The position numbers and the translations under genes were made by a program. Under the pieces are notes generated by a model. That model worked only from the letters and a program-made list of their open reading frames with translations, had not been told where the DNA came from and ran no database searches. 32,112 nucleotides of DNA, from positions 1-32,112 of the forward strand of contig CALXRZ010000015.1 of the NCBI GenBank assembly GCA_944391015.1, given 5' to 3'. This document shows positions 4,034-18,587 of the stretch, one piece after another. Each line of letters begins with the position of its first letter. The stretch's first letter is position 1. Source of the stretch: an uncultured Clostridia bacterium. GTDB taxonomy: Bacteria > Bacillota > Clostridia > TANB77 > CAG-508.

Positions 4034-4072
4034 TGTTTCCTCCATTTTTATTAAATTATAGTACTATATTAG

Positions 4073-4217
4073 GAAGAGTATATATTTTTTCTTTTTATTG
4101 AAGTGCTTAAGGTGGGGACCAACAAGCTTACAAACTGTTAAATGAAGCTTTAGCTGAATTTATACAGTTTGTGCGATGTTGGGGGCCGGAAATAAAAAGA
4201 AAAAATATATACTCTTC
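4073..4217 (+). repeat. Structured repeat element, copy 1
   Basis: A 145-bp element bounded by a perfect 27-bp terminal inverted repeat (4073-4099 and 4191-4217). Inside, CTTAAGGTGGGGACCAACAA (4106-4125) starts a conserved core. CCAACA (4119-4124) pairs with TGTTGG (4177-4182), ACAAACTGT (4130-4138) pairs with ACAGTTTGT (4164-4172), and the loop holds AGCTTTAGCT, which can form a small apical hairpin. A second copy lies at 18377-18526 in reverse orientation. No reading frame is present. It could be a non-autonomous mobile element (MITE-like), a structured RNA, or both. It sits between ftsZ and spoIIGA. Confidence 0.8.
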
Positions 4218-4257
4218 TTATATTAAAATTATTATTCATTAGATTTCGTTTTATAAT

Positions 4258-4338
4258 TTCTCTTTTTATTGAAGCAATCCTATTGTACAACTTTTTAATC
4301 AAAAAATATGTCAGTTTGTAGGCACGAAAAAAAGAAAT
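4258..4338 (+). repeat. Possible degenerate copy of the structured repeat
   Basis: TCTTTTTATTGAAG (4261-4274) is identical to the left inner end of copy 1. About 40 bases later TCAGTTTGTAGGCACGAAAA (4311-4330) resembles its right half. The central core is not conserved, so this is at most a decayed copy in the same orientation, directly beside copy 1. Confidence 0.35.
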
Positions 4339-4366
4339 AATCTACTATTTTCGATTATTTCTTTTT
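4329..4366 (-). terminator. Intrinsic terminator downstream of ftsZ
   Basis: AAAAAGAAATAATC (4329-4342) and GATTATTTCTTTTT (4353-4366) form a perfect 14-bp stem with a 10-base loop. Read on the minus strand the 3' arm ends in a run of U. It lies 110 bases after the ftsZ stop and would separate ftsZ from spoIIGA. The stem is symmetric, so it could act in either direction. Confidence 0.6.
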
Positions 4367-4455
4367 CTCTGTTATTATTATATTTAAAAAACGACAAGGC
4401 TACCTTTATTATTTATCTTTAAGAATAAGTAACCATTTTTTATTTATATTGTAGT

Positions 4456-4475
4456 CTTAAGGTGGGGACCGACAA
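4456..4475 (+). repeat. Orphan core of the structured repeat at the ftsZ stop
   Basis: CTTAAGGTGGGGACCGACAA differs at a single base from the core of copy 1 (ACCAACAA there, ACCGACAA here) and is 2 bases from the ftsZ stop codon. ATATTGT and ACAATAT flank it as a 7-bp inverted repeat, so it could form the loop of a small hairpin. Confidence 0.7.
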
Positions 4476-4477
4476 TA

Positions 4478-5599
4478 TTATTTATTCATTCCTCTCTTAT
4501 TTCTTAAGAAAGATGGTATATCCAAATTGTCTGCTGAGCTTGAATTGTCTGCTGGGTTAGGTATAGAATTTATTTTCTTATCCCACGCTTTTTCTACAAT
4601 ATCTCCTACTGGAATACCTGAATTTAATCCTGGCTCTTTTTCAAATCCTGTTGCAATAACAGTAATAATTATATCTTCATCTAGGCTTTCGTCTATAACT
4701 GCACCAAATATAATATTAGCCTCTGGGTCTACACTGCGTTGAATGAATTCAGCAGCTGTATTTACTTCGTGTAATCCTAAGTTTGTTCCACCTGTAATAT
4801 TTATTATTACTCCTCTTGCACCTTCTATTGATGTTTCAAGTAATGGGCTTTGTACTGCTTGTTTTGCTGCATCTTCTGCTCTATTTTCTCCTGACGCTCT
4901 ACCAACACCCATATGAGCCATACCTGTATTTAACATTATTGTTTTTACATCTGCAAAGTCTAGGTTTACTAAACCTGGAATTGCTATTAAGTCTGATATA
5001 CCTTGTACACCTTGTCTTAATACATCATCTGCCATTTTGAAAGCTTCTACTATTGATGTTTTTCTATCTATAATTTGTAGTAACTTATCATTTGGTATTA
5101 CAACAAGTGTATCTACTTTTCCTTTTAGACTTTCTACACCACGTTCTGCTTGAGATAAACGTTTTTTTCCTTCAAAAGTGAATGGTTTTGTAACAACACC
5201 GATTGTTAAAATTCCCATTTCTTTAGCTGTAGCTGCTACTATAGGAGCTGCACCTGTTCCTGTTCCGCCTCCCATACCAGCTGTAACAAATACCATATCT
5301 GCTCCACGTAATGCTTCTGCTATTTCTGATTTACTTTCTTCTGCAGCTTGGGCTCCTATGTCTGGATTTGCACCTGCTCCTAAACCTCTAGTTATTTTTT
5401 CTCCTATTTGTATTTTTGATGGAGCTTTTGATAAAAGTAATGCTTGTCTATCTGTATTTACTGTTATAAATTCTACTCCTTTAATTCCAGAATCAACCAT
5501 TCTGTTTACTGCATTATTTCCAGCTCCTCCAATTCCTATTACTTTAATTGTTGCTGTTCCATCCATCATTGTACTTTCATCTGTGTTATCCACGAACAT
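4478..5599 (-). CDS. ftsZ: Cell division protein FtsZ
   Basis: Tubulin-like GTPase of 373 residues that polymerises into the Z-ring. The N-terminal nucleotide-binding domain has [14 protein letters not shown] (about 21-34) and the tubulin signature [10 protein letters not shown] (about 110-119). The T7 synergy loop is seen in [11 protein letters not shown]. The C-terminal conserved peptide [10 protein letters not shown], which binds FtsA and other partners, is intact at the very end. GAGGAGG lies 9 bases upstream of the ATG. It follows ftsA with an 81-base gap and probably shares the ftsA promoter. Confidence 0.99.
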
Positions 5600-5680
5600 A
5601 ACGCTTATCCTCCTCTATTATTTTATTTTATCATTTATTTCATTATACAACAAATCTATTTTACTAATAAGTTGTAATTT

Positions 5681-6907
5681 TTACGAGTAAAAAAACTCTT
5701 TAATTTTTCCTAGAATACTTTGAAAAACATTTTCCTTAGATTTTGAATCTATACTACTAGATAAGTTTTTAGCAAAAGGTCTTGAAGCAATATATCTTAC
5801 TAATGAGTATGCTGTTCTGTATTCTGGTCTTACTGTACTTACTAATCTTCCTGTAGATATTTTTACTGGTATATTTAATATTATTTTTCCAGCCACATCG
5901 CTTTTATTTATGCTTGTAATTCCTTGTCCAGTTAGTATTACATTGTTTATTCTTGGTTTAATTCCTTGAGCCGTTATATCTTTATTTACTAATGAAAATA
6001 TTTCTTCTATTCTGGCTTCAATTATTTCTACTAATTCAGAACTTTTTATTACTTTTCTGTTTTCATCTTTACAAGTGTTTAGTAATATTTCATTATCATT
6101 ATCTATAAATGATTTAAGTGCTAAACCATATTGATGTTTTAATCTGTCAGCCTCTTCTTCTGATATATTTAATACCAATGCAATATCGTTTGTAATGCTA
6201 TCTCCTCCAAGTGGTATTGTATTTGTATATGTAAAAGATAATCCTTCAAACACACCAATATCTGTGTTACCAGCCCCTATATCTAGTAACATTACATTAT
6301 CATTTAGCTCATTACCATCTAATACCAAACTTCTTTCTGCAAGTGTTACAGGTACTAGTCCGTCTATGTCTATATCTGCCTTTCTAAAAATATTAGACAA
6401 TTGCTTCATATATTCTCTGTTTGCTAAAACCACTTGTGCTTTTACTGTAAAGCTAGAACTTAGGCTTCCTACTGGATCTTGAACTACTTTTCCATTATCT
6501 AGTATGAATTCATCTGTTACAATATCTATAATTTGCATTCCTTCTGGCATATCTATGTCTTTTACTTGTGATATTGCACTACTAACATCTTTTCCTGAAA
6601 TTCCGGCATATTTATCTTTTGCTTCTTTGGTAATACTGTTTTGTACTATTGTAACATATTTTCCAGGTATTGTTAGATATGTTGAGTTTATTTCCATTTC
6701 AAGTTCTGATTCTGCTTCTTTAATTAGTTTTGATACTGCTGTTACAACTTCATTTTCATCTACTATTTTACTTTTCTTTATACCACTACACTTACAACTT
6801 GTTGTGCATAGGACCTCTATTTGGTTAAAGTTATTAACTTCGCCGATAACTAAGCTTACCTTTGAAGTTCCAATGTCCATTCCTACGATAATATCTCCTA
6901 TAGCCAA
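5681..6907 (-). CDS. ftsA: Cell division protein FtsA
   Basis: Actin-like protein of 408 residues that anchors the Z-ring to the membrane. The first phosphate loop is GMDIGTSKVSLVIGE near residue 9, the second nucleotide motif is LLDIGAGNTDIGV near residue 210, and the C-terminal amphipathic anchor is FQSILGKIKEFF. The start is taken as TTG at 6907, with GGAGG eight bases upstream. The ATG at 6922 lies on the Shine-Dalgarno itself and has none of its own. It begins a unit with ftsZ, driven by a consensus promoter at 6948-6976, and is separated from sbp by about 160 bases. Confidence 0.97.
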   Translation of the reverse strand: MAIGDIIVGMDIGTSKVSLVIGEVNNFNQIEVLCTTSCKCSGIKKSKIVDENEVVTAVSKLIKEAESELEMEINSTYLTIPGKYVTIVQNSITKEAKDKYAGISGKDVSSAISQVKDIDMPEGMQIIDIVTDEFILDNGKVVQDPVGSLSSSFTVKAQVVLANREYMKQLSNIFRKADIDIDGLVPVTLAERSLVLDGNELNDNVMLLDIGAGNTDIGVFEGLSFTYTNTIPLGGDSITNDIALVLNISEEEADRLKHQYGLALKSFIDNDNEILLNTCKDENRKVIKSSELVEIIEARIEEIFSLVNKDITAQGIKPRINNVILTGQGITSINKSDVAGKIILNIPVKISTGRLVSTVRPEYRTAYSLVRYIASRPFAKNLSSSIDSKSKENVFQSILGKIKEFFYS

Positions 6908-6947
6908 GGCACATTCCTCCATTTTTTTCTGCTCTTATTTGTTCATT

Positions 6948-6976
6948 AGAATATTACATTTTAAAAAAAATGTCAA
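6948..6976 (-). promoter_or_regulatory. Sigma-A promoter of ftsA-ftsZ
   Basis: Minus-strand TTGACA (6971-6976), 17-base spacer, TATTCT (6948-6953), about 40 bases upstream of the ftsA start. The upstream side carries 11-bp phased AT-rich repeats (6983-7026). Confidence 0.75.
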
Positions 6977-6982
6977 TAGAAT

Positions 6983-7026
6983 TTGTAATAATTTTGTAAT
7001 ATTCTTGTAATAATTTTGAAACATTG
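6983..7026 (-). repeat. Four 11-bp phased repeats upstream of the ftsA promoter
   Basis: Plus-strand units TTGTAATAATT, TTGTAATATTC, TTGTAATAATT and the more divergent TTGAAACATTG follow each other exactly every 11 bases. They begin seven bases upstream of the -35 box. One helical turn per unit suggests an UP-like element or a regulator binding on one face of the DNA. Confidence 0.65.
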
Positions 7027-7066
7027 TACTAAAAATAAGACTATTTGAATTTTTATAAAATTTTAT

Positions 7067-7456
7067 CTATTTTTTTGTCATTTCTTTTGCTTCTACTTTT
7101 TTGTTTTTTTGTCTCTTTTCAGTCCATTTATCTAAATAATATCTTCTAATTATAGCTAGGTTATTAAACATTCTGCCTACAAATACTACTATTGCTGCTA
7201 AGTATATATCAACATTTAATTTTTGTCCAAGATATGTTAATAGTATTGAAAGAATAGCATTTCCAAAAAAACCTGATACAAAGATTTTTAAGTCAAAATT
7301 TTTCTTTAATGTTGATGCGATTCCTCCAAATACAGAATCTAGGGCTGCAATAATAGCTATAGCCAAATATCCTGAATATGAATATGATATCATTGGCATA
7401 TTTACTCCAATTAGTGCACCTACTATACATCCTAATATTATTGCAATAAAAATCAT
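7067..7456 (-). CDS. sbp: Small basic protein Sbp, membrane protein
   Basis: A 129-residue integral membrane protein of the small basic family found between divIB/ylxX and ftsA in Firmicutes; Bacillus Sbp is about 121 residues. About three hydrophobic segments occupy residues 1-110, with a Lys-rich cytoplasmic tail (KWTEKRQKNKKVEAKEMTKK). Function is unknown, but the location is conserved with division genes. AGGAGG lies 5 bases before the ATG. It starts 14 bases after the preceding DUF881 gene, so it is co-transcribed. Confidence 0.88.
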   Translation of the reverse strand: MIFIAIILGCIVGALIGVNMPMISYSYSGYLAIAIIAALDSVFGGIASTLKKNFDLKIFVSGFFGNAILSILLTYLGQKLNVDIYLAAIVVFVGRMFNNLAIIRRYYLDKWTEKRQKNKKVEAKEMTKK

Positions 7457-7470
7457 AATAACCTCCTATT

Positions 7471-8181
7471 TTACTCACTAACAACTTCTTGCATATATTC
7501 TACTTCTAGCTCTCCATTATATTTTGGTATTTCCACTTTATTTTCTACTTTTAAGCTTACATTTATGTCTGTAACAGTATCTACAAAGCCACTACCTTTT
7601 AATTGTAATATGGTAGATATATAATCCTTATCTCCAATTGCTTTTACCACATAAGGACCTTGTATTCTTTGCAAATTAACTAATATGTATGTATCTACAT
7701 CCACTATGTCAGTCATTGCTAAAACCCTTACACCATTTATAGATATAGCCTCTGCTCCTGCATACCTTAGTTCGTTTACCAAATCGATTAAATGGCTTGC
7801 ATACACTCTACTATAAGTTCCATCACTTAATGTAACTACAACTCCCTCACCGTATACATCTGTTTTGCCAACTAAAATATTAGATTCTGTTAACTCTTCA
7901 TCTACTAGCTCTGCAGCAGCTTCGTTGTCCTCAATAGTTTTATTATACTCTTCTATTCTTTCGTTTGTATCTGCTAGTTGTGTAGATACTTCTTCATATC
8001 TTGTTTTCCAGTCAGATAATAAAGACCTTAATTCTGATTCTCTCATATTTTCGATTTCTGTTATATCTGTTTGTTCTACTGTTCTAAATTGCATAAGCAT
8101 AACACTTACTAATACGATACATACAATAAATACTACAACAGTAACTGCTGTTATATCTGCTCTAATTTTAAACTTTTTCAC
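7471..8181 (-). CDS. ylxX: DUF881 protein, YlxX-like
   Basis: A 236-residue DUF881 protein with one N-terminal membrane anchor (residues about 10-30), a coiled coil (about 35-90) and the conserved domain with DVYGEGVVVTLSDGTYSR and LRYAGAEAISINGVRVLAM. Two such genes next to sbp are the ylxW-ylxX pair of Bacillus; their role in division is unproven. The start is GTG with AGGAGT eight bases upstream. It is a paralogue of the gene immediately upstream, 12 bases away. Confidence 0.85.
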   Translation of the reverse strand: MKKFKIRADITAVTVVVFIVCIVLVSVMLMQFRTVEQTDITEIENMRESELRSLLSDWKTRYEEVSTQLADTNERIEEYNKTIEDNEAAAELVDEELTESNILVGKTDVYGEGVVVTLSDGTYSRVYASHLIDLVNELRYAGAEAISINGVRVLAMTDIVDVDTYILVNLQRIQGPYVVKAIGDKDYISTILQLKGSGFVDTVTDINVSLKVENKVEIPKYNGELEVEYMQEVVSE

Positions 8182-8193
8182 TTGCTCACACTC

Positions 8194-8913
8194 CTATTTG
8201 TCCTCTTTCATATATTTATATGTTATAGAACCTGCATATTTTTGTATTGTAATATCATCTACTCTTGTTACTTCAGCTGTGTTGCCATACTCTCTTATAA
8301 TGTCCAAACAAGAACCTGCTCTTGTTAAAGCACCATAAAGCAAGCTTTGTGAGCCGATTGCTCTTATATGAAATGGTGAGCCTACTCTTTCTCCATTTAT
8401 TTTAATTATATTTCCCTCACACGTAATTGCTGAAGTATTAACCAGTCTTTGCCCATTTATTTCTATTGCTTCTGCTCCTGCATTTTTTAGTTCGTTTACT
8501 ACATCTTGAATATCTCCAAAATGAATAATTTGATAAGATGGGTTTATACTATTTGCATTTTTTGCATCTTCTAGGTAAACTTCTACACCATCACCTTTTA
8601 CATCTGTATTTCCAAGCAAAATATTATTTTCTCTAAGTTCTTGCTCTTTTGCTTCTGAAGTACTGTCATTTTGTGTAGCTTCTTGTCTTATTTTCTCTAG
8701 CTCTTTTTGGGCATTTTCCAATTCTCTATATGCATTATCATATTTTTCTTTCATTTTTAGAACTTCATCTCTTAATCCATTATCAGATAAAGTTTGTGAT
8801 ACAGTTGAACTTGCCGAGCTCATTGTTCTTAGTTGAACACATATTGCAATTGTTAGTAAAAAACACATTACTCCTAAAGTAATAGCTATTTGTTTTTTGT
8901 TCAAATATATCAT
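8194..8913 (-). CDS. ylxW: DUF881 protein, YlxW-like
   Basis: A 239-residue DUF881 protein with one N-terminal membrane segment (about residues 8-28), a coiled coil (about 45-90) and domain motifs NTDVKGDGVEVYLEDA and LKNAGAEAIEINGQRLV. It is a tandem paralogue of the next gene. Order and spacing match Bacillus divIB-ylxW-ylxX-sbp. The start is uncertain: the ATG at 8913 is only 1 base after AAGGAGG, while a TTG at 8904 has a 10-base gap and may be the real start. Confidence 0.85.
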   Translation of the reverse strand: MIYLNKKQIAITLGVMCFLLTIAICVQLRTMSSASSTVSQTLSDNGLRDEVLKMKEKYDNAYRELENAQKELEKIRQEATQNDSTSEAKEQELRENNILLGNTDVKGDGVEVYLEDAKNANSINPSYQIIHFGDIQDVVNELKNAGAEAIEINGQRLVNTSAITCEGNIIKINGERVGSPFHIRAIGSQSLLYGALTRAGSCLDIIREYGNTAEVTRVDDITIQKYAGSITYKYMKEDK

Positions 8914-8919
8914 CCCTCC

Positions 8920-10104
8920 TTAAACCTTAACCTTTTCTCTAAAATAAGGCTCTTCCACATTCAAGTTTACATTCAAATATATAGTTCCTTCGTTTTTTTC
9001 TTCGTCTTTTAATATTTTATTTATCCATAATATTTTTGTACTTAAGTCTGATACATCTCCTAAATATATTTTCTTTTTTTCTGAAGATATATCTAGTATA
9101 TAATTGTTTTTGTCTGAAATATCAATTTGAGTAATCAATTCAGCTAGTTTATTATCTCCACTTGATGCAGCTTCCATTATTTTTAGCACATCATTTAATT
9201 TTTCTAAGTCTGTTTCATTTAACCTATTGCCTTCTACAATTTCCTCTGCTGGTGTATTATATCCTATTATTACAGGAACTGCAAGTTTTTTACTTGTAAT
9301 TTCTAAAATATATCCTTGGTTATTTATATATACATAAGCATTTCCAAGAGTTAGCATATATGTTGCAACTCTTTCTTGTACACTTATTTCTATTTTATCT
9401 GGTATTTTTCTACTTATTTGCACTTTATCTATGTAAGCATTTTGCTTTATTGCATCTTTTATATCGCTTGTCCAAAAACTGAATATGTTTTGATTTATGC
9501 TAAGACCAGATAAACTTATAATTGTATCTGAGGAAATTTTTGAATTGCCATAAACTTCTATATTTTTTATATTAAATATTGGCGATAGCAGTGTATATAC
9601 AATTCCTCCAATTATAATTGCAAGTAGTGTTAAGTATTTTATAACTCGCAAAACCCTTTTTCTTTTTCTTCTTGCCATTTCTTGCTTTTTTGTTAATTTT
9701 TTTGGCTCACGTTTAACATTTTTTGGACTAACTTTATTTTTTTTGTTACCTTTTTTATTGTTTTGCCTATTCTCTTCCTCTTCTTCCTCGTAGTTTCTCA
9801 TATATTTAGATTTTATTATAACACCAGAATCATCGTCATCTATATTTTTGGTTTTAGAATTACTTTTAATTTTTTCTTGTTTTTTAGTAGTTTTTACCTT
9901 TTTCTTAGATTTTTTTGTTTTTTTATTTACTACCTTTGGTTCATCTATTCTTTTTAATCCTATAACAATTTCTTCATCAAAACTAAATTTGTCATCTTTT
10001 GTATTTGTTTCTGTATTTTCTACTTTTGCTTTTTTTGATTTTAATTTACTTTTGGTTGGTCTTGGTTTTTCGTGTTTACTTTTTTCTTTAGCTACTCTTG
10101 GCAT
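8920..10104 (-). CDS. divIB: Cell division protein DivIB/FtsQ
   Basis: A 394-residue bitopic division protein. The first 140 or so residues are an unusually long Lys/Glu-rich cytoplasmic tail (for example KKTKKSKKKVKTTKKQEK). One membrane helix follows (VIKYLTLLAIIIGGIVYTLL), then a POTRA domain beginning FNIKNIEVYGNSKISSDTII. DivIB joins the FtsL-DivIC subcomplex and helps activate septal wall synthesis. The ATG at 10104 was chosen because GAAGGTGA precedes it; a TTG at 10143 has no such site. It sits between murA (57-base gap) and the DUF881 pair. Confidence 0.9.
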   Translation of the reverse strand: MPRVAKEKSKHEKPRPTKSKLKSKKAKVENTETNTKDDKFSFDEEIVIGLKRIDEPKVVNKKTKKSKKKVKTTKKQEKIKSNSKTKNIDDDDSGVIIKSKYMRNYEEEEEENRQNNKKGNKKNKVSPKNVKREPKKLTKKQEMARRKRKRVLRVIKYLTLLAIIIGGIVYTLLSPIFNIKNIEVYGNSKISSDTIISLSGLSINQNIFSFWTSDIKDAIKQNAYIDKVQISRKIPDKIEISVQERVATYMLTLGNAYVYINNQGYILEITSKKLAVPVIIGYNTPAEEIVEGNRLNETDLEKLNDVLKIMEAASSGDNKLAELITQIDISDKNNYILDISSEKKKIYLGDVSDLSTKILWINKILKDEEKNEGTIYLNVNLNVEEPYFREKVKV

Positions 10105-10161
10105 TTGCTCACCTTCTTTTTTGTATATTTCTCTATCTGTCAATTTTTAGGCATAACATTA

Positions 10162-11415
10162 CTAATCTTCTTTTAGTATAATATTTGCGCCTAAATTTCT
10201 TAGTTTTTTATCTAAATTTTCATATCCTCTTAATATATATTCAATATTTGTTATTTCAGTTTTACCTTTTGCTACCAGTCCAGCTGTTACTAAAGCTGCT
10301 CCACCTCTTAGGTCTGTACTCATAACTTTAGTTCCTGTTAATTTTCTAACACCTTTTATTACTGCTGTTTTTCCTTCAACTGTAATTTTTGCGCCCATTT
10401 TCTTTAACTCTGACATATATTTGTATCTATTTTCAAATATATTTTCAACTAAAATTGATGTGCCTCTTGATACAGTTAACATACTCGCAAATACAGATTG
10501 CATATCTGTTGGAAAACCTGGATAGGGCATTGTTTTTAGATCTACTGCTTTTAATCTTTTAGGTGCTTCTAAAAAAATAGTCCTTTTTTCTTTTTTTATT
10601 TTACAGCCACACTCTTCTAATTTGTTTAGAACTGGACTAATATGGTCTGGTATAACATTATTTAATTTTATTTTACCACCTGTAATTGCAGTCATACATA
10701 AAAGGCTTCCTGCTTCTATTCTATCTGGCATAACATTATAACTAATATCTTTTAATTTTTTTACTCCTGTTATTTTTATGTTGCTGGTTCCGGCGCCCTC
10801 TATTTTTGCTCCCATTTTATTTAAGCAGGTAGCCAAATCAGCTATTTCTGGCTCCATTGCTGCATTTGTAATATTGGTTATTCCCTCTGCATACACAGAT
10901 GCTAATATTATATTTTCAGTTGCTCCTACGCTTGGAAAATCCAAGTCAATATTAGCCCCTATTATTTTATCACATTTACATACAATAAATCCAGCATTTT
11001 CCAAAATATTTATGCCTAATTTTTGAAAACTTTTTAAGTGGAGGTCAATTGGTCTTGCTCCAATGTCACATCCACCCGGATATGAAAACGTTACTTCCTT
11101 GAATCTGCCTAGGATTGCGCCTGCTAAAATAACCGTTGAACGCATTTGATGCATTAAATGCTCTGGTATTTCTTTTTTTATAATATTTTTTGAATCTATT
11201 TCTATTTTGTCTTTAGTTTTTTTGACCACACATCCTAAAAATTTTAATATTTCTTGCGTTATTTTTGTATCTCTTATATTTGGAACATTATATAATTTGG
11301 TTGTTCCTTCATTTAAAATTGTTGCTGCTAATATTGGAAGTGATGCATTTTTGGACCCTGATACATATTCTTCTCCCTCTAACCTTTTTCCTCCCTCAAC
11401 TATGTAACTTAGCAT
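10162..11415 (-). CDS. murA: UDP-N-acetylglucosamine 1-carboxyvinyltransferase
   Basis: Enolpyruvyl transferase of 417 residues that adds PEP to UDP-GlcNAc, the first committed step of peptidoglycan synthesis in the cytoplasm. The active-site loop YPGGCDIGARPIDLHLKSF includes the catalytic, fosfomycin-sensitive Cys near residue 116. Other signatures are LEGEEYVSGSKNASLPILAA at the N-terminus and RGGAALVTAGLVAKG near the C-terminus. The ATG at 11415 was preferred (AGAAAGG nine bases upstream); a GTG at 11424 overlaps that site. Firmicutes often carry two murA genes, and which paralogue this is cannot be decided here. A perfect 9-bp inverted repeat (11453-11475) lies in its leader. Confidence 0.96.
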   Translation of the reverse strand: MLSYIVEGGKRLEGEEYVSGSKNASLPILAATILNEGTTKLYNVPNIRDTKITQEILKFLGCVVKKTKDKIEIDSKNIIKKEIPEHLMHQMRSTVILAGAILGRFKEVTFSYPGGCDIGARPIDLHLKSFQKLGINILENAGFIVCKCDKIIGANIDLDFPSVGATENIILASVYAEGITNITNAAMEPEIADLATCLNKMGAKIEGAGTSNIKITGVKKLKDISYNVMPDRIEAGSLLCMTAITGGKIKLNNVIPDHISPVLNKLEECGCKIKKEKRTIFLEAPKRLKAVDLKTMPYPGFPTDMQSVFASMLTVSRGTSILVENIFENRYKYMSELKKMGAKITVEGKTAVIKGVRKLTGTKVMSTDLRGGAALVTAGLVAKGKTEITNIEYILRGYENLDKKLRNLGANIILKED

Positions 11416-11452
11416 CTTTTTCACCCTTTCTTACTTATGTTTTTTTGATATA

Positions 11453-11475
11453 TTTTATGTTTTCTTAACATAAAA
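11453..11475. promoter_or_regulatory. Inverted repeat in the murA leader
   Basis: TTTTATGTT (11453-11461) and AACATAAAA (11467-11475) form a perfect 9-bp dyad about 40 bases upstream of murA. It could be an operator or a weak hairpin; no U-run follows on the minus strand. Confidence 0.4.
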
Positions 11476-11496
11476 GGTGAATAAGATAACTATAAA

Positions 11497-11535
11497 AGCA
11501 GGGGAAAACTAGAATTTTCTAAGTTCCCCCCTGCT
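11497..11535 (-). terminator. Intrinsic terminator of the orphan gene
   Basis: Read on the minus strand AGCAGGGG pairs with CCCCTGCT, with further AA/TT pairing and a small bulge, followed by TTTTA. It lies just after the stop of the gene at 11544-12146 and isolates it from murA. Confidence 0.7.
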
Positions 11536-11543
11536 ATATTACG

Positions 11544-12146
11544 TTATTTCTGCTTCACCAGAATAGGCACCGAATCGCAGATTTGAATGCGATTCAAGTA
11601 ACCACACTCGAATACCTCTGTCATTGGCACTCTTCCACCATCACTGGTGCAGTTACCGATGTAGGCTAGAGTGTTCTTCCACTCCACAACTTTGTACCAC
11701 TCGGCATCTTCTTCTACATCGCACATCCTGTGCCAGTCATTTTCAGTCTTGATTTGAGTTGCCCACCAAAGGGCAACCTCAATCCAGTTTGCAACTCTCG
11801 AGTTCTGCCTCTTGGCGAAGTCTTTCATTTCTCTGAAAGATTTCGCCTTCCATCTTTTTTCAGGAATCTGTATTTCAAAATTCCTATACTTTTCGTTTTT
11901 CTTGGCTATTGCAATAGCCTCGTTTATAGTCCGTCTTGTTTCCTCCTGTCTTTGATTTCCTCTAGCTTGCTTGAACAGCTCTTCGCTGATTTCAGTAAAA
12001 TTTACCGAAATCCATTTCCCTTCAATTCTGTTTTTTTCTTTCTCGTGCGTAGCTTCTTTCGTCGAAAGATACTCCGACACTATTTTTGTTAATGCGTCCT
12101 CCGAGAAGGACATTTCGTGGCCATTTACAAATAACGTAATCCTCAT
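11544..12146 (-). CDS. Orphan protein of unknown function, foreign composition
   Basis: A 200-residue soluble protein that I do not recognise. It is Glu/Lys/Trp rich, with no signal peptide or membrane segment. It contains a possible coiled segment (EETRRTINEAIAIAKKNEKY) and a Trp-rich C-terminal half (VANWIEVALWWATQI, ENDWHRMCDVEEDAEWYKVV). Its GC content and codon use are visibly higher and more balanced than those of its AT-rich neighbours, which suggests acquisition by transfer. The start at 12146 is supported by AGGAGG nine bases upstream. It has its own consensus promoter (12201-12229) and a strong terminator (11497-11535), so it is a self-contained cassette between topB and murA. Confidence 0.85.
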   Translation of the reverse strand: MRITLFVNGHEMSFSEDALTKIVSEYLSTKEATHEKEKNRIEGKWISVNFTEISEELFKQARGNQRQEETRRTINEAIAIAKKNEKYRNFEIQIPEKRWKAKSFREMKDFAKRQNSRVANWIEVALWWATQIKTENDWHRMCDVEEDAEWYKVVEWKNTLAYIGNCTSDGGRVPMTEVFECGYLNRIQICDSVPILVKQK

Positions 12147-12200
12147 ACTGTCTATCCTCCTGCTGTTTTTTATACTAAAGCAAGTCGCTTTATACAAATA

Positions 12201-12229
12201 ATTTTACCACAGTTTTACATAATTTGCAA
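12201..12229 (-). promoter_or_regulatory. Promoter of the orphan gene
   Basis: Minus-strand TTGCAA (12224-12229), 17-base spacer, TAAAAT (12201-12206), about 55 bases upstream of the start at 12146. The early transcript contains AAAGCGACTTGCTTT, a small hairpin. Confidence 0.6.
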
Positions 12230-12233
12230 ATTC

Positions 12234-14219
12234 TTACCACTTCACTACAAGTTTATTTACTTTTGAGTTTATATAGTTTTCTAGTTTTTCCATAAACACA
12301 TCAGGCTTTATTTCTTTTTTTGCTACCATATCAAGCCCTTTTTCCCAACTAGCTGTAAGTTTTGGGTTAAGCATATCTGGCATAGAGCTATTTACCACAT
12401 CATATATGACCTCGCCTTTTTTTGTCGGAGTAATTATTTGTGTTTTTGTATTTATTGCTATGTAGCCTATTCTTTCTAGTTTTTTCATTATTTCCGCCCT
12501 AGTTGCACTTGTACCAATTCCTGCACCTTTTATTTGTTCTCTTAATTCTTCGTCTTCTATGAGTTTTCCTGCGTTTTCCATTGCAAGTATTATAGAGCCA
12601 GAGTTATACCTTGATGGTGGAGTAGTTTCTGATGTTTTTATTTCAAAATTTACCACTTTTATTTCTTGTCCTTTTTTTAGTGTATTCAAAATTTCTAAAT
12701 CAGCTTCTTCATTACCATCTTTGAGGTTCTGGTTATCTGCACTATTTGGCTCTTTTTTTACTGCATTATTCACATTTTGTGCATTTTTCTCTGCCGAAGA
12801 TTTTCTATCTTTTAGTACCTCTAAATACCCTAGTTTTGCACATACTTTTCCACTAGCATTAAATTCTTCATTTTCTATATTTATTGTTACAGAAATTTTG
12901 TTAAACTCAGCTGGTGGGTAAAATATTGCTAAAAACCTTTTTGTTATAACTTTATATACTTGTTTTTGTAAATCTGGTAGTTTATCAAAATTTTCATATC
13001 CTTGCCCTGTTGGTATTATTGCATAGTGGTCTGTTATTTTGCTATCGTTCACATATTTTGTTTTGGTAAGGTCTGTTTTATATTTTTCTTCTGCCATTTG
13101 TTTTATATATCCTTGTACTTCATCATCCTTATACCCTTTTGCAATTCCATTTAAGTTTTTAGATATTACTTTTGCAATAGCTGTAGAAAGTACCCTGGCG
13201 TCGGTTCTAGGATAAGTCACCAATTTTTTTTCATATAATTCTTGTATTATTTCCAAAGTTTGGTCCGGTTTAATTTTAAATCGTTTTGTACATTCATTTT
13301 GTATTTCTGCCAAATTAAATAAAAGTGGTGCATTTTCTTTTGTTTTGCTTTTTTTAACTTCGGTAATTATAGCTTTTTTGTTTTGAAGTGATACTATAAA
13401 AGCTTTAGCATCACTTTCTTTTTTAAAACCAGATTCATTGTATAATTTAGGTGATTCATACATTACTGACTTTTCATTTACTTTCCATTCTGCTTTTAAA
13501 GGTTTTTCTGCATCTCCAAATAATCCAACAATTTTATAATATGGTGTTTTAACAAAATTTCTTATTTCGCGTTCTCTTGAAACAATCATACCGAGTACAC
13601 AAGTCATAACTCTTCCTACAGAAATGCAAATTTTATCCTCGTCTAGCTCCTTTGCTACTCTTCTGCCATAAATTATAGACAATAATCTTGAAAAATTTAT
13701 ACCTATAAGATAATCCTCTTTAGCCCTTAAATATGCAGAATCTGATAAGCTATCATACTCGGATAAATCTTTTGCCTCTTCTATTCCTCTTTTTATTTCC
13801 TCTTCTGTTTGCGAATCTATCCATACTCTTTTTCTATGTTCTTTTTTTATTCCAATTTGATTTTCTACTAACCTAAAAATATATTCTCCTTCACGTCCAG
13901 AGTCAGTTGCAACATAAACAGAATCCACATCTTCTCTTGATAGCAGATTCTTTATTATATTGTATTGTTTTTGTACATTTGAAATAACTTCGTATTTATA
14001 TTCTTTAGGCATAAAAGGAATAGTATCTAGTCTCCAAAATTTAAGCTTTTCATCATAAACTTCTGGATAAGACATTGTAACTAAGTGACCTACACACCAA
14101 GTTACTATCCAATTTTCAGATTCTAAATACCCATCTTTTCTTTGTCCATTTATTTTTAATACTTTTGCGAACTCCATTGCAACTGAAGGTTTTTCTGTTA
14201 TAAGTAATTTTTTTGGCAT
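12234..14219 (-). CDS. topB: DNA topoisomerase III, type IA
   Basis: A 661-residue type IA topoisomerase that relaxes or decatenates DNA by cutting one strand. The TOPRIM domain is N-terminal (LLITEKPSVA at about 6-14; ATDSGREGE near 104-112). SVGRVMTCVLGMIV is near 200. The active-site Tyr sits in LVTYPRTDARVLSTA at about residue 336. SGSIILAMENAGKLI and GIGTSATRAEIMKKLERIGY follow in the C-terminal half. No zinc-finger tail is seen, as expected for TopB rather than TopA. It is somewhat shorter than the about 727-residue Bacillus enzyme. AGAGGG precedes the ATG. The next gene downstream is the orphan cassette. Confidence 0.95.
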   Translation of the reverse strand: MPKKLLITEKPSVAMEFAKVLKINGQRKDGYLESENWIVTWCVGHLVTMSYPEVYDEKLKFWRLDTIPFMPKEYKYEVISNVQKQYNIIKNLLSREDVDSVYVATDSGREGEYIFRLVENQIGIKKEHRKRVWIDSQTEEEIKRGIEEAKDLSEYDSLSDSAYLRAKEDYLIGINFSRLLSIIYGRRVAKELDEDKICISVGRVMTCVLGMIVSREREIRNFVKTPYYKIVGLFGDAEKPLKAEWKVNEKSVMYESPKLYNESGFKKESDAKAFIVSLQNKKAIITEVKKSKTKENAPLLFNLAEIQNECTKRFKIKPDQTLEIIQELYEKKLVTYPRTDARVLSTAIAKVISKNLNGIAKGYKDDEVQGYIKQMAEEKYKTDLTKTKYVNDSKITDHYAIIPTGQGYENFDKLPDLQKQVYKVITKRFLAIFYPPAEFNKISVTINIENEEFNASGKVCAKLGYLEVLKDRKSSAEKNAQNVNNAVKKEPNSADNQNLKDGNEEADLEILNTLKKGQEIKVVNFEIKTSETTPPSRYNSGSIILAMENAGKLIEDEELREQIKGAGIGTSATRAEIMKKLERIGYIAINTKTQIITPTKKGEVIYDVVNSSMPDMLNPKLTASWEKGLDMVAKKEIKPDVFMEKLENYINSKVNKLVVKW

Positions 14220-14278
14220 TTTTCCCTCTACTCTTTTAATTATTTTATATTGCAGTTACACAATTTTTTATTATTAAC

Positions 14279-14301
14279 GGAGCTCAATTTTCTTGAGCTC
14301 C
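14279..14301 (-). terminator. Hairpin after the DUF3298-like gene
   Basis: GGAGCTCAA (14279-14287) and TTGAGCTCC (14293-14301) form a perfect 9-bp GC-containing stem with a 5-base loop, 16 bases after the stop of the minus-strand gene. The following tract is A/T rich but not a clean U-run. Confidence 0.6.
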
Positions 14302-14316
14302 AATAATTTTCTTGCA

Positions 14317-15159
14317 TTATTCAAATAATATTATATCCATTTTAGAAGTATACTCTCCATTTCCATAAGCATATACTATATATAATCTTCCCTCTGGTCC
14401 TAAGAAATATCCATTTGCATTATCTACTGTATATATATCACTAGTTAAATCTCTTATATATACTTGATTATACCCCATATTTTGTAATGCTTGGTCCTCT
14501 GCATCTGCTTCTGTTACTACTTCTTTTATTTTTTGGTTTACTTCGTCTTTATTTAGTTGTTTTTGTGTAATTAAGTCAATAAGCGATGCTTCTGCGTTTG
14601 TAGCTAAGTTATAATTATATGTTTGAATTATTATTCTTTGAGCTGATTTACTTTCTTTAAGTGTAGACCTAATTACTACAGATAGTATATTTCCATTTAC
14701 ATAAGCTGAATAATCAATACTATATATTGACTTATTGCTTGGGTCCGTATTTTGCAATACATTATTTGCTTTATCTACAAAGATAGTTTGAGTAGTATTA
14801 TTTAACTTTGTTGCTAAGTCACTTTTTATGTTTATAATAGGAATATGAATATTTACCTCATAATTATCTGTCATTTCTAATTTTTCATATATTGTATAAA
14901 CTATATCATTATCTCCATTTATTTTAGAAATTCCTGTAGTATCAAAATTTCCTAAATTTAAAGTGTTAGTAAAAATTTTATCAAACTCATCTTTTATTTC
15001 TACTTGCGATTTGTCTTGCTCTGTAACTGTATTTTGGTTCTCTGCAGATAAATCTAGCCCTCCATAATCTTTGTCAATAAACTGAGCATAAATTCCTGCT
15101 AAAATTGCAAGTACACAAAAAACTCCGATTAAAATATACATTATATTAGGATTCTTCAT
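14317..15159 (-). CDS. Membrane-anchored DUF3298/RsiV-like protein
   Basis: A 280-residue protein with an N-terminal membrane anchor or signal (residues about 5-25: IMYILIGVFCVLAILAGIY), so most of it is extracytoplasmic. The body resembles the DUF4163/DUF3298 arrangement of RsiV and PdaC: IHIPIINIKSDLATKLN, then a strand-rich part (VNGNILSVVIRSTLK, YNYNLATNAEASLIDLI), then GYFLGPEGRLYIVYAYG near the end. Known relatives bind lysozyme or peptidoglycan, but there is no sigma gene beside it and no visible deacetylase domain, so no function is assigned. The start at 15159 follows AGGAGAAGGGG; the open frame extends to 15201 without a better site. It has its own promoter. Confidence 0.7.
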   Translation of the reverse strand: MKNPNIMYILIGVFCVLAILAGIYAQFIDKDYGGLDLSAENQNTVTEQDKSQVEIKDEFDKIFTNTLNLGNFDTTGISKINGDNDIVYTIYEKLEMTDNYEVNIHIPIINIKSDLATKLNNTTQTIFVDKANNVLQNTDPSNKSIYSIDYSAYVNGNILSVVIRSTLKESKSAQRIIIQTYNYNLATNAEASLIDLITQKQLNKDEVNQKIKEVVTEADAEDQALQNMGYNQVYIRDLTSDIYTVDNANGYFLGPEGRLYIVYAYGNGEYTSKMDIILFE

Positions 15160-15189
15160 TTTTCCCCTTCTCCTACTTTTTTTATTTAT

Positions 15190-15218
15190 AGTATACAACA
15201 TTGATATAAAAATTTCAA
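15190..15218 (-). promoter_or_regulatory. Promoter of the DUF3298-like gene
   Basis: Minus-strand TTGAAA (15213-15218), 17-base spacer, TATACT (15190-15195), about 30 bases upstream of the start at 15159. It is divergent from the clpE promoter 100 bases away. Confidence 0.7.
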
Positions 15219-15292
15219 TTATTATTAAAATACTTTTCTATATAATGTTTTCTTTATCTAGGAACTATGTATGTTTTAAATATATATTACCT

Positions 15293-15325
15293 AAAGTCAA
15301 ATTTTGTGCTTATTCAATTGACTTT
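15293..15325 (+). promoter_or_regulatory. Inverted repeat overlapping the clpE -35 box
   Basis: AAAGTCAA (15293-15300) and TTGACTTT (15318-15325) are exact complements separated by 17 bases. The right half contains the -35 box. The half-site resembles one CtsR heptad (GGTCAAA), but the arrangement is inverted rather than the usual direct repeat. It is a candidate operator for a heat-shock regulator. Confidence 0.4.
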
Positions 15326-15346
15326 CGCACCATTTTAATGTATTAT
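15318..15346 (+). promoter_or_regulatory. Sigma-A promoter of clpE-pgsA
   Basis: TTGACT (15318-15323), 17-base spacer, TATTAT (15341-15346), about 60 bases before the clpE start. Confidence 0.7.
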
Positions 15347-15406
15347 ATAATATGTACAAATAGCAAAATTTTAATGAGTATAAACTCGATTGGAGGTTTT
15401 TATATA

Positions 15407-17740
15407 ATGTTATGTTCAGACTGTAAGAAGAATAATGCAGTTGTTTTCGTTAACAAAAAAGGTGAAGACGGAAAGAACACTTTAGAGGGCTATTGTTATG
15501 ATTGTGCCAAAAAAAGAGGCATAAATCCAATAGATAGCTTAATGAAGCAAGCTAACCTCTCTGAAGATGATTTAAATAATATGACTGAGCAATTTGAATC
15601 TATGTTTAAAGATATGTCTGAAAATATGAACTTTGGAGATATTCAAGAAGAAAGTGATGATTCATACAATCCTGAAGAATCAAATAATGAAATGCAATTT
15701 GGTGCTATTCCTTTAGGTTCTATATTTTCAAATATGTTTGGTGCAGGTAATTCAAACGAAGATTCAAGTTCTACAGATTCAAATTCTTCTAGTAAGAAAA
15801 AGGTTAAAGTAGATAAAAAAGCTAGTAAAAAGAAAAAAGCACTAGATACATTTGGTACTAACTTAACACTAAAGGCCAAGAAGAATGAACTTGATGCAGT
15901 TATTGGTAGAGATAAGGAAATTCAAAGGATTATCCAAATTTTAAATAGACGTTCTAAAAATAATCCTTGCTTAATAGGTGAACCAGGAGTTGGTAAAACT
16001 GCTATTGCACAAGGGTTAGCAATAAGGATTGCGAATGGTAAAGTACCAGCTAAGCTTTTAAATAAGGAAGTATATTTACTAGATATGACTGCAATTATTG
16101 CAGGTACACAATTTAGAGGGCAATTTGAATCAAGAATGAAGTCTATTATAGATGAATGTAAATCTTTAGGCAATATTATATTAGTAATTGATGAAATTCA
16201 TAATATTATAGGAGCTGGTGATGCAGAACACTCTATGAATGCAGCAAATATTTTAAAGCCATCACTTGCAAATGGTGAAATTCAATTAGTTGGTACTACT
16301 ACTTTAAAAGAGTATAGAAAGTACATAGAAAAAGATACTGCCCTAGAAAGAAGATTTCAACCAGTTATAGTTGCTGAACCATCTATAGATGACTCAATAA
16401 ATATTCTTGATGGAATAAAAAAATATTACGAAGATTATCATAAAGTAAAAATTTCTACAGATGTTATAAGGCAAGCAGTAATAATGTCTGAAAAATACAT
16501 ACACGACAGATTTTTACCAGATAAAGCTATTGACATACTAGATGAAGCTTGTTCAAGAATAAACTTAGATAATAAAGAATTATATGAATTAGAAGTTTTA
16601 AAAAATGATTTAGCTAAAGTTCAAGAAGAAAAAGAAGAAGCTGCTCAGGCCGATTCTACAGAAGATTATCAAAAGGCTGCAGAGCTAAAAACTAAAGAAT
16701 GTGCTATTACAGAAAAAATAGATAAAATTTCTAAGGAAATGAAACCTAGAGAATTAACAGTTCAAGATATTGCTGAAGTTATTGAGAACTGGACAAAAAT
16801 ACCTGTTAAAAAAATAACAGAAGCAGAGACTCAAAAATTGTTAAATCTAGAAGCTAATCTTCATAAAAGAATAATTGGTCAAAACGAAGCTGTAGAGGCG
16901 GTATCAAGAGCAATTAGAAGAAATAGAGCCGGTTTAAAAAGTACCAAAAGACCACCATCTTTTATATTTGTTGGACCTACTGGTGTTGGTAAAACAGAAC
17001 TTGCAAAAGCATTATCTTACGAAATGTTTGGAAGCGAAGATTCTATTATAAGAATAGATATGTCTGAATATATGGAAAGTCACTCTACATCTAAACTTAT
17101 TGGCTCTCCTCCAGGATATGTTGGATATGATGATGCAGGTCAACTTACTGAAAAAGTTAAAAGGAACCCTTATTCAATAATTCTTTTGGATGAAATTGAA
17201 AAAGCCCATCCTGACGTATTTAATATTTTACTTCAAGTATTAGATGACGGTAGACTTACAGATTCGCAAGGCAATACAGTAAGTTTTGAGAATACTATAA
17301 TAATTATGACATCAAATGCAGGTTCTAACTTAAATACAAATTCAATAGGTTTTGGTGGTGGACAGGTAAATAATAATGCTATTCAAAATGCTTTAAAAGA
17401 AACTTTTAGACCTGAATTTTTAAACAGAGTAGATGAAATTGTAATATTTAACAGTCTATCAATAGACGAACTAATGCAAATTGTAGACCTAATGCTAAAT
17501 GATACTAGAAAAGCATTACAAGATAAAAATATTACGCTAGAAGTAACAGGATCAGCAAAAAAATATTTACTAGATAAAGGCACTGATACCAAGTATGGCG
17601 CTCGTCCACTAAGAAGAGCAATACAAAGATATGTTGAAGATGAGCTTTCAGATAGAATTTTACGCTCAGAGTTAACAAACGGAAACACTGTAAAAATAGA
17701 TTTAGAAAATAATGAATTAAGTTTTGAAATTTTAAAATAA
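15407..17740 (+). CDS. clpE: ClpE-type AAA+ ATPase, Clp protease subunit
   Basis: A 777-residue HSP100 unfoldase that feeds damaged proteins to ClpP. The N-terminus has a four-Cys zinc finger (CSDC at 3-6 and CYDC at 30-33), the mark of ClpE rather than ClpC. An acidic then Lys-rich linker (about 50-145) follows. AAA domain 1 has GEPGVGKT near 191 and VIDEIHNIIGAG. A short coiled coil carries a UVR-like stretch (EDYQKAAELKTKECAI). AAA domain 2 has GPTGVGKTELAKAL and LLDEIEKAHPDVF. The linker is longer than in Bacillus ClpE (about 699 residues in total). The start at 15407 follows GGAGG; the frame is open back to 15245 without a suitable site. pgsA follows 12 bases later. Confidence 0.93.
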   Translation: MLCSDCKKNNAVVFVNKKGEDGKNTLEGYCYDCAKKRGINPIDSLMKQANLSEDDLNNMTEQFESMFKDMSENMNFGDIQEESDDSYNPEESNNEMQFGAIPLGSIFSNMFGAGNSNEDSSSTDSNSSSKKKVKVDKKASKKKKALDTFGTNLTLKAKKNELDAVIGRDKEIQRIIQILNRRSKNNPCLIGEPGVGKTAIAQGLAIRIANGKVPAKLLNKEVYLLDMTAIIAGTQFRGQFESRMKSIIDECKSLGNIILVIDEIHNIIGAGDAEHSMNAANILKPSLANGEIQLVGTTTLKEYRKYIEKDTALERRFQPVIVAEPSIDDSINILDGIKKYYEDYHKVKISTDVIRQAVIMSEKYIHDRFLPDKAIDILDEACSRINLDNKELYELEVLKNDLAKVQEEKEEAAQADSTEDYQKAAELKTKECAITEKIDKISKEMKPRELTVQDIAEVIENWTKIPVKKITEAETQKLLNLEANLHKRIIGQNEAVEAVSRAIRRNRAGLKSTKRPPSFIFVGPTGVGKTELAKALSYEMFGSEDSIIRIDMSEYMESHSTSKLIGSPPGYVGYDDAGQLTEKVKRNPYSIILLDEIEKAHPDVFNILLQVLDDGRLTDSQGNTVSFENTIIIMTSNAGSNLNTNSIGFGGGQVNNNAIQNALKETFRPEFLNRVDEIVIFNSLSIDELMQIVDLMLNDTRKALQDKNITLEVTGSAKKYLLDKGTDTKYGARPLRRAIQRYVEDELSDRILRSELTNGNTVKIDLENNELSFEILK

Positions 17741-17752
17741 GGAGCAAAATAT

Positions 17753-18322
17753 ATGTTAAAAAATATACCTAACGCACTTACAATATTAAGATTTATTTTA
17801 ATTCCACCCATAGTATACTATATACTTACTGGCCAATATATAGCAGGTTTTATAGTATTAACAATTTCTGGCTTAACCGATATTTTAGATGGATGCATAG
17901 CAAGAAAATTTAACTTTATAACAAACTTTGGAAAACTAATTGACCCACTAGCAGACAAAGCTACGCAAATTGCCGTACTTGCCTCACTTACATTTAAAGG
18001 AATAGTCCCACTTTGGATACTTATGATTGTTTTTATAAAAGAAATAGTTATGGTAGCTGGAGCTTCATTCCTTTATGGTAAAAAGCTAGTTGTATCAAGT
18101 AGATGGTATGGAAAATTAGCAACGGTATTATTTTATTTAGCAATAGTATGTTCATTATTTATTGAATATTGGAATACTACAATAAAACCAGAAGCTCCTT
18201 TATTTGGATTTGATGATTACATTTATTACTTAGCAATAGCTACAACAATATTCTCATTGATAATGTACTTTAAACAATTTTATCAAGATGGATATTTGAA
18301 GAAAGAAAATTTAAAAATTTAA
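17753..18322 (+). CDS. pgsA: CDP-diacylglycerol-glycerol-3-P phosphatidyltransferase
   Basis: A 189-residue membrane enzyme that makes phosphatidylglycerol phosphate from CDP-diacylglycerol and glycerol-3-phosphate. The CDP-alcohol phosphatidyltransferase motif D-x2-DG-x2-AR-x8-G-x3-D-x3-D is complete in DILDGCIARKFNFITNFGKL followed by IDPLADK (about 43-69). Several hydrophobic helices span the protein. AAGGAGC lies before the ATG. It is 12 bases after clpE, so co-transcribed. A strong hairpin begins within its stop codon. Confidence 0.94.
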   Translation: MLKNIPNALTILRFILIPPIVYYILTGQYIAGFIVLTISGLTDILDGCIARKFNFITNFGKLIDPLADKATQIAVLASLTFKGIVPLWILMIVFIKEIVMVAGASFLYGKKLVVSSRWYGKLATVLFYLAIVCSLFIEYWNTTIKPEAPLFGFDDYIYYLAIATTIFSLIMYFKQFYQDGYLKKENLKI

Positions 18323-18365
18323 TCTTTTTCAGCAAAACAGGTCGGGCCTGTTTTGTAAAAAGATT
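18321..18365 (+). terminator. Terminator hairpin after pgsA
   Basis: AATCTTTTT (18321-18329) pairs with AAAAAGATT (18357-18365). Inside, CAAAACAGG (18333-18341) pairs with CCTGTTTTG (18347-18355) around a TCGGG loop. The long stem starts at the pgsA stop codon. It is also the left outer arm of a larger palindrome with 18548-18587. Confidence 0.7.
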
Positions 18366-18376
18366 AACATAATTTT

Positions 18377-18526
18377 AAAAACTAGTATATATTTTTTATT
18401 TGTGGCTTCGGCCCCCAACTGCGTACAAACTGTACTAATTCCACTAACGTGTAATTAACAGTTTGTAAACTTGTCGGTCCCTACCTTAAGCACTTCGCTA
18501 CAAAGAAAAAATATATACTAGTTTTT
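18377..18526 (-). repeat. Structured repeat element, copy 2
   Basis: Copy 2 of the element at 4073-4217, in reverse orientation. Terminal inverted repeats 18377-18403 and 18500-18526 match at 26 of 27 positions. Read on the minus strand the core is CTTAAGGTAGGGACCGACAA, then ACAAACTGT and ACAGTTTGT. CCGAC pairs with GTTGG where copy 1 has CCAAC with GTTGG (G-U for A-U). The apical hairpin is CAC-GTTA-GTG where copy 1 has AGCT-TT-AGCT. Different bases with preserved pairing point to selection on structure. Confidence 0.8.
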
Positions 18527-18547
18527 TTAAGCTTCTAAGTTATGTCG

Positions 18548-18587
18548 ACTTTTTTACAAGATTGGCCCGGCCCCTTTTGCTGAAAAT
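18548..18587 (-). repeat. Outer arm of the palindrome around copy 2
   Basis: The reverse complement of this segment closely resembles 18325-18365 (shared CAGCAAAA, then CGGGCC, then TTGTAAAAAAG), so copy 2 sits at the centre of an imperfect palindrome of about 265 bp from 18324 to 18588. Confidence 0.55.

Follow-up and report, generated by a model that had tools for sequence, protein, structure and literature searches.

A large mobile-DNA-like hairpin family of gut Clostridia with a conserved core and variable, matched arms

The window, by which we mean the whole stretch of 32,112 nucleotides analysed here, is carried on contig 15 of a 1.51-Mb genome in 83 contigs, and its genes include spoIIGA, ftsZ, ftsA, comEC and a Clp-ATPase gene. 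The original prediction placed two structured elements in opposite orientation within it, and both are found where it had set them (Table 1). The repeat is, however, far from a two-copy one: about 40–50 copies are present in the genome, and a third, truncated copy stands in the window itself, at a site where the relatives G019 and G020 retain just a shorter piece of the left arm. Copy 2 is enclosed by outer REP-like arms, and arms resembling these also flank other copies. When folded, the window copies outperform 200 of 200 shuffled sequences, both as single-stranded DNA (z −9.2 and −7.6) and as RNA (z −8.4 and −5.6).

Closer comparison of the two complete copies alters part of what had been read from them. 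Three covarying changes had been cited; that in the apical hairpin is two-sided, whereas the changes from CCAAC/GTTGG to CCGAC/GTTGG and from T-G to T-A each affect one side of the pair. The 26–27-bp stretches taken for terminal inverted repeats (TIRs) are a variable stem with no conserved terminus, and transposon-like ends lie further out, in part of the copies.

Table 1. Positions of the hairpin copies and their parts in the window
Feature	Position	Strand	Remarks
Complete copy 1	4071..4219	+	between ftsZ and spoIIGA; covariance model match
Left arm of copy 1	4073..4099	+	27 bp; pairs with 4191-4217
Conserved core of copy 1, CTTAAGGTGGGGACC...GTTGGGGG, including inner stems	4106..4185	+	
Right arm of copy 1	4191..4217	+	
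Third copy, truncated	4435..4475	+	left arm and left core only; directly 3' of ftsZ stop
Outer REP-like arm, type A, GGGGACNGGCC family	18326..18375	.	flanks copy 2
Complete copy 2	18377..18526	-	between pgsA-like gene and convergent gene (function not known)
Arms of copy 2	18377-18406 and 18497-18526	-	
Conserved core of copy 2	18412..18490	-	
Outer REP-like arm	18537..18586	.	other side of copy 2

Conserved core and variable arms

Each copy is a hairpin whose stem, about 30 bp or longer, is capped by a nearly invariant core. The core reads CTTAAGGTGGGGACCRACAAG...GTTGGGGG in the home genus and GTGGGGACCRRC...GYTGGG in other genera; the stem, 96–97% Watson–Crick paired, varies in sequence between copies. 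The apex varies in length on the same core: core start and right arm are 70–89 nt apart in most copies, 130–139 nt in a second group and up to 164 nt in a few. Across 165 genus copies, arm positions 6–33 outward from the core are paired in 84–99% of copies, all four bases are used at outer arm positions, and pairing fades from about position 35. The pairing is specific to the copy: the score of an arm against its own partner has a median of 26.6, compared with 7.8 across copies, and falls under the cross-copy 95th percentile in only 6 of the 165. The corresponding medians in other genera are 25.75 and 2.5, with 0 of 56 copies under that percentile. Within one alignment (A1), 96.6% of cells are paired, against 80.3% in shuffled versions and 38–48% with partners slid, a slide control that favours the structure because the structure was predicted from the same alignment; two-sided changes occur at 34 of its 49 pairs. 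Broad covariation sits in the outer arms and apical stems, to which other genera add the CCRRC/GYTGG stem. A right-core variant, GCCAAAGG, recurs in place of GTTGGGGG at loci L035, L039, L096, L108 and L114; its five changes are all transitions, and the CCRAC/GTTGG stem is lost.

The family extends well beyond the window. A BLAST search of the home genome with copy 1 gave 58 alignments, secondary ones included, from which 40 places were chosen for study; the core pattern, allowing at most one mismatch, has 47 matches there and the reversed pattern 0. Among 56 genomes searched with the DNA query, similar copies were found in 19 of the 30 belonging to the genus and in 0 of the 26 others. Core matches per genome within the genus, all drafts, run from 0 (11 of 30) up to 59, and this range separates sister species. 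The covariance-model search of related genomes suggested with the original prediction was run with a model trained on 45 copies, and it recovered divergent homologues from 13 of the 45 genera of the order, with matches in 60 of its 287 genomes; all 60 fall in one family, and the 227 non-matching genomes may include further members of that family. We regard these matches as homologues, and not as mere AT-rich hairpins, because the pattern GTGGGGACC[AG][AG]C...CG[AC][AT]G[CT]TGGG, with at most two mismatches per side, can be made out in 57 of the 74 loci examined, whose arms are entirely different in sequence, yet complementary. Named records with the same core are ‘uncultured Clostridia/Clostridium’ MAGs, among the matches listed (80 of at least 107), and viral contigs have 0 exact core matches. 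The window hairpins are members of a large mobile-DNA-like hairpin family of gut Clostridia, for which the open-licence literature yielded no earlier description.

The earlier impression that no described family is involved is borne out: Rfam 15 has no gathering-level match in the window, and at E ≤5 the four copy-bearing loci searched give a sole sub-threshold match, Corona_pk3 (0.39), outside the element. The additional copies retain the conserved core and an excess of covariation, and no known Rfam or MITE family was matched. The core resembles the T-box motif AGGGTGGNACCGCG; Rfam gives no support to a T-box relationship. A simple intrinsic terminator was likewise rejected, since the element's own stem has its T-rich side 5' and its A-rich side 3', leaving no T-tract after it.

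Other hairpin repeats occupy the same kind of site. A second family, with core GTGACGCGTAAGCGACCAAACGAGCTTCTTTGAAGCGAGTGCGATTTGGAG and long matched arms, lies in the same intergenic spots of sister genomes: L297 and L298 at the site of L008, L308 at that of L014, L312 at that of L003 and L295 at that of L007. Neither L297 nor L308 has an Rfam match at E ≤1. A third family, GGAATGG...GTGATTT.AGTATAGAAA...CCGACA, also with matched arms, is represented by L303 and L304 (site of L013) and by L207 (site of window copy 2), with no Rfam match in L304 or L207; over the other-family hairpin loci together with L219, Rfam returned one sub-threshold match, Plastid-psbA-2. L410 and L415 are intergenic hairpins whose stems differ and whose common tip, GGTCYGTCCCC, resembles the core GGGGAC and the REP-like repeats around copy 2.

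Mobility and genomic context

The MITE-like character originally proposed holds for part of the copies, which are multi-copy, mostly intergenic and in some cases bounded by target-site duplications (TSDs) or matched by empty sites; conserved ends were recognised in a minority. Outer GTTAC...GTAAC ends are visible in 21 of 182 copies, and TSDs are testable just there: 12 of the 21 have an 8-bp TSD with 7–8 of 8 bases matching (2.9% among shuffled pairings), while the remaining nine match at no more than 6 of 8 flanking bases. One unit with such ends is 202 bp long, and ends of this type also occur outside the genus, for example at L354 and L360. Five empty sites, at L012, L007, L017, L008 and L006/L063, are seen in relatives or outgroups from which the core and the two arms are absent. 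TSDs and empty sites, the two traces of insertion that had been proposed for checking, are thus both present. Sister genomes at L012, L007 and L002 retain the left arm alone, to about the arm/core junction, and G002 retains a left-arm piece at the ftsZ site; these remnants are deletion derivatives. L302 (G020, site of L010) is a coreless palindrome with arms and degenerate GTTAC-type outer ends, and represents either a deletion derivative or a coreless relative. For the copies in G225, empty sites were sought in relatives that proved too distant, with flanks 65–91% alike.

A pattern search of two draft genomes (88% and 97% complete), allowing one mismatch, found no separate kilobase-sized unit with these ends that could serve as an autonomous element, and the individual loci studied yielded none either. 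A long, ORF-bearing version was rejected, the second arm lying at most 164 nt away in 177 of 192 distinct cores in a 6-kb search that left 15 without an arm. TIR-like pairs 1.4–3.9 kb apart occur at four loci: those at L120, L160 and L146 enclose ORFs that by eye resemble ordinary genes, and the 2.3 kb between two copies at L104 holds an ORF with an Ig-like domain (PF20251) and no transposase. Genes for Y1_Tnp occur in 24 of 30 genus genomes; a Y1 transposase seems unlikely as mobiliser, its presence not tracking copy number. Thirteen core matches are found in genome G012, which lacks Y1, and the reverse holds for G017, G018 and G026, where Y1 occurs without any core match.

Copies rarely overlap a predicted ORF (10 of 126 in the genus, 2 of 56 in other genera), and they lie close to gene 3' ends, at median distances of 49 and 53 nt respectively. 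Relative to their neighbours, the genus copies having 1 kb on each side (n = 126) are antisense in 65 cases and sense in 18, a difference whose p of 2e-7 is overstated because the copies, orthologues included, are not independent; a further 20 are divergent and 13 convergent. Other genera show 24 antisense against 14 sense (p 0.14), with 14 convergent and 2 divergent. Such a bias in orientation is consistent with insertion that is single-strand or linked to replication, or with one of the read-through orientations being selected against.

Origin of the matched arms

Selection acting on RNA would be expected to admit G.U into a stem, as read on the transcribed strand, more readily than A.C, and the two mismatches can be counted separately in the DNA. 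The arms of 170 genus copies, 4537 pairs in all, contain 28 G.T and 26 A.C, with 81 other mismatches and 4402 Watson–Crick pairs; those of 56 copies from other genera contain 16, 12, 34 and 1517, respectively. Given this lack of a G.T excess, the pairing looks to be kept at the DNA level and not by RNA selection, and the arms look matched by a process acting on DNA. Stem P3 gives 5 G.T to 3 A.C, a recognisable P3 being missing in 4 of the 170. P2 is the sole part of the element that hints at a single-strand fold. Its third pair in the genus is G.T in 123 copies, A-T in 43 and T.T in 4 of 170, weak evidence where an invariant T stands opposite A or G; its fourth pair is A-T in 164 of 170, with one each of G.T, A.C and G-C, and carries no signal. 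Outside the genus the fourth pair is A-T in 36 copies, G-C in 12, G.T in 8 and A.C in 0 of 56, changes that amount to few events because the 12 and the 8 derive, in each case, from five genomes. The constraint on the core may be that of folding as a single + strand, whether RNA or single-stranded DNA. The earlier claim that a structure of RNA or single-stranded DNA is under selection is therefore divided by these counts: the pairing is real, the strand test argues against RNA-level selection of the long arms, and core stem P2 points to a + strand fold on few independent changes.

Selection on RNA nonetheless has to be weighed as a general explanation, in which the element is a functional structured RNA, cis-regulatory or small, that was multiplied by duplication, with arms and core both RNA-selected. 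RNAalifold support for the structure is strong, P2 accepts G.T and hardly A.C, the profiles imply a purine-rich 3x3 internal loop beside the core, and conservation is higher in the core than in the arms. Divergence also points this way: in 27 of 41 orthologue pairs, a set biased to recognisable copies in that it admits only those with a recognisable core and similar arms, it is 10.2% in the flanks, 4.1% in the arms, 2.8% in the left core, 7.1% in the apex and 5.9% in the right core, although lower divergence suggests either constraint or homogenisation and is not proof. We consider such an RNA unlikely, as the arms and P3 show no G.T excess, the genus copies lie predominantly antisense to co-directional neighbours, copy number differs so widely among sister species, and Rfam offers no credible match.

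Orthologous copies give a view of how the arms change. Core orientation is the same in 41 flank-matched pairs and inverted in 10. At L103/L149, one inverted pair has unchanged arms and flanks 98–99% alike, a clean spacer inversion; in a second, the arms have been swapped for different, still matched ones. Several of the 10 inverted pairs have arms that also differ and may be separate insertions. Among close orthologue pairs (n = 26, after three pairs were set aside as separate insertions), 23 arm changes are one-sided and 5 two-sided, counts that speak against fast switching; over all 41 pairs there are 61 one-sided and 69 two-sided changes, the distant pairs including separate insertions at one spot.

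A different aspect appears in G225, where four copies have cores 92–98% alike and outer arms only 28–40% alike. Their palindromes reach 73–95 nt from the core with 0–2 mismatches over 52–69 pairs, and each outer arm finds a strong match in its own inverted partner alone, other matches having E of at least 0.009 (40 of 73 candidates scored). The L397 arm in G240 is, by contrast, common to several places, so that unique and amplified arms both exist. Drift from a single master would hardly yield unique, perfect arms on near-identical cores; they call for either fast template switching at some stage or insertion that copies flanking DNA backwards. Directly outside unique arms, a GAGTA motif stands on the left in two genera (L345, L359, L385 and L397 in g23; L338 and L357 in g18), while the right side carries GG...CTGCAAA in three of these loci (L345, L359 and L385). 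These flanking motifs suggest a larger unit.

The second of these routes can be framed as an inverted target duplication, in which insertion makes an inverted copy of adjoining DNA, so that the arms of every copy are unique and perfect from the outset. The G225 copies are what such a process should leave, and the empty relatives of L017, L007 and L006 show, by eye, part of the outer arm on one side only. We nevertheless think it improbable: neither arm is present in the L012 outgroups or the L008 relatives, some arms are shared between copies as in G240, copies with an 8-bp TSD behave like ordinary units, and several copies have conserved motifs beyond their unique arms. Similarly doubtful is a new mode of mobility in which an enzyme reads the tip as a folded single strand and each insertion rebuilds the arms by copying neighbouring DNA backwards; were it true, no two copies would have the same palindrome, and each palindrome would be perfect.

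An ordinary MITE family, with apparent covariation arising from shared ancestry of the copies alone, would explain the TIRs, TSDs and uneven copy numbers, yet it is very unlikely in the face of the cross-pairing control in both sets of genera and of a core that is kept across genera while arm sequence is not. Slightly less probable again is insertion of the core into loops of existing hairpins such as transcription terminators, the stems of which would then serve as outer arms, for while the proximity to gene 3' ends, the convergent excess in other genera and, by eye, terminator-like hairpins at the L350 spot in seven G225 relatives suit it, empty relatives at five sites have no hairpin of those stems, the home genus has fewer convergent than divergent copies, and the outer arms of L350 and L351 have no terminator T-tract.

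The reading we prefer, and to which we would give about an even chance, is that of a MITE-like, non-autonomous mobile hairpin in which the folded tip is conserved and template switching during replication homogenises the arms. It builds on what is observed: the copies, the conserved tip, the matched arms, the strand test, TSDs in a subset, empty sites and core inversion. A putative transposase acting in trans would move the copies, cutting at the outer repeats. The folded core would be retained because it has to be read as a single-stranded fold, either by a protein or by the machinery of transposition or replication, which is the role we propose for the tip. Template switching, as the presumed cause of the matching, would keep the arms complementary, with one arm acting as the snap-back template for the other, and the same copying could lengthen the arms into flanking DNA; it would account for compensatory change without RNA selection. 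Slow arm correction fits poorly with arms so different among copies.

Relation to known elements and significance

Several known systems share features with the element. Like MITEs, it is short, ORF-less and multi-copy, with TIRs and an 8-bp TSD in a subset and empty sites in relatives; unlike them, it has a conserved folded core instead of conserved termini, its arms are copy-specific, and no autonomous parent was found in the draft genomes searched. Rickettsia palindromic elements (RPE) are mobile palindromes of about 100–150 bp located inside reading frames, and are therefore similar in kind and size but differ in setting from an element that so seldom overlaps an ORF. Fold-back transposons (FB, Galileo) are eukaryotic and far longer, and have variable long inverted arms around a short middle, with inversions; arms, middle and inversions are all features in common with the element, although we know of no conserved folded middle among them.

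REP, REPIN, BIME and RAYT-associated palindromes are likewise intergenic, and the GGGGAC motif is common to the element and the REP-like hairpins flanking copy 2. REP/REPIN sequences are defined as palindromes of 20–40 nt with a GTAG or CGTC tag (PMC3733652), in contrast to an element of about 150–200 bp with neither tag in its core profile. For a linked RAYT transposase, the Y1_Tnp distribution described above applies. Template switching is reported to make hairpin arms uniform and to flip the spacer between them (PMC8604942), and compensatory changes of several bases have likewise been attributed to it (PMC8794818). All three features are seen here too. The published cases are RNA genes and yeast coding genes, whereas the present one is a mobile family that combines many copies with a conserved core.

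The family adds a mobile hairpin from 13 genera, all in one family of small-genome Clostridia, for which the searches of Rfam 15 gave no entry. Since there are orthologues in which arms have been swapped and cores inverted, the template-switching model can be put to a direct test. The many copies also amount to a natural experiment: covariation usually serves to prove RNA structure, and here its origin seems to lie at the level of DNA. Covariation scans of palindromic repeats need a strand test that compares G.T with A.C.
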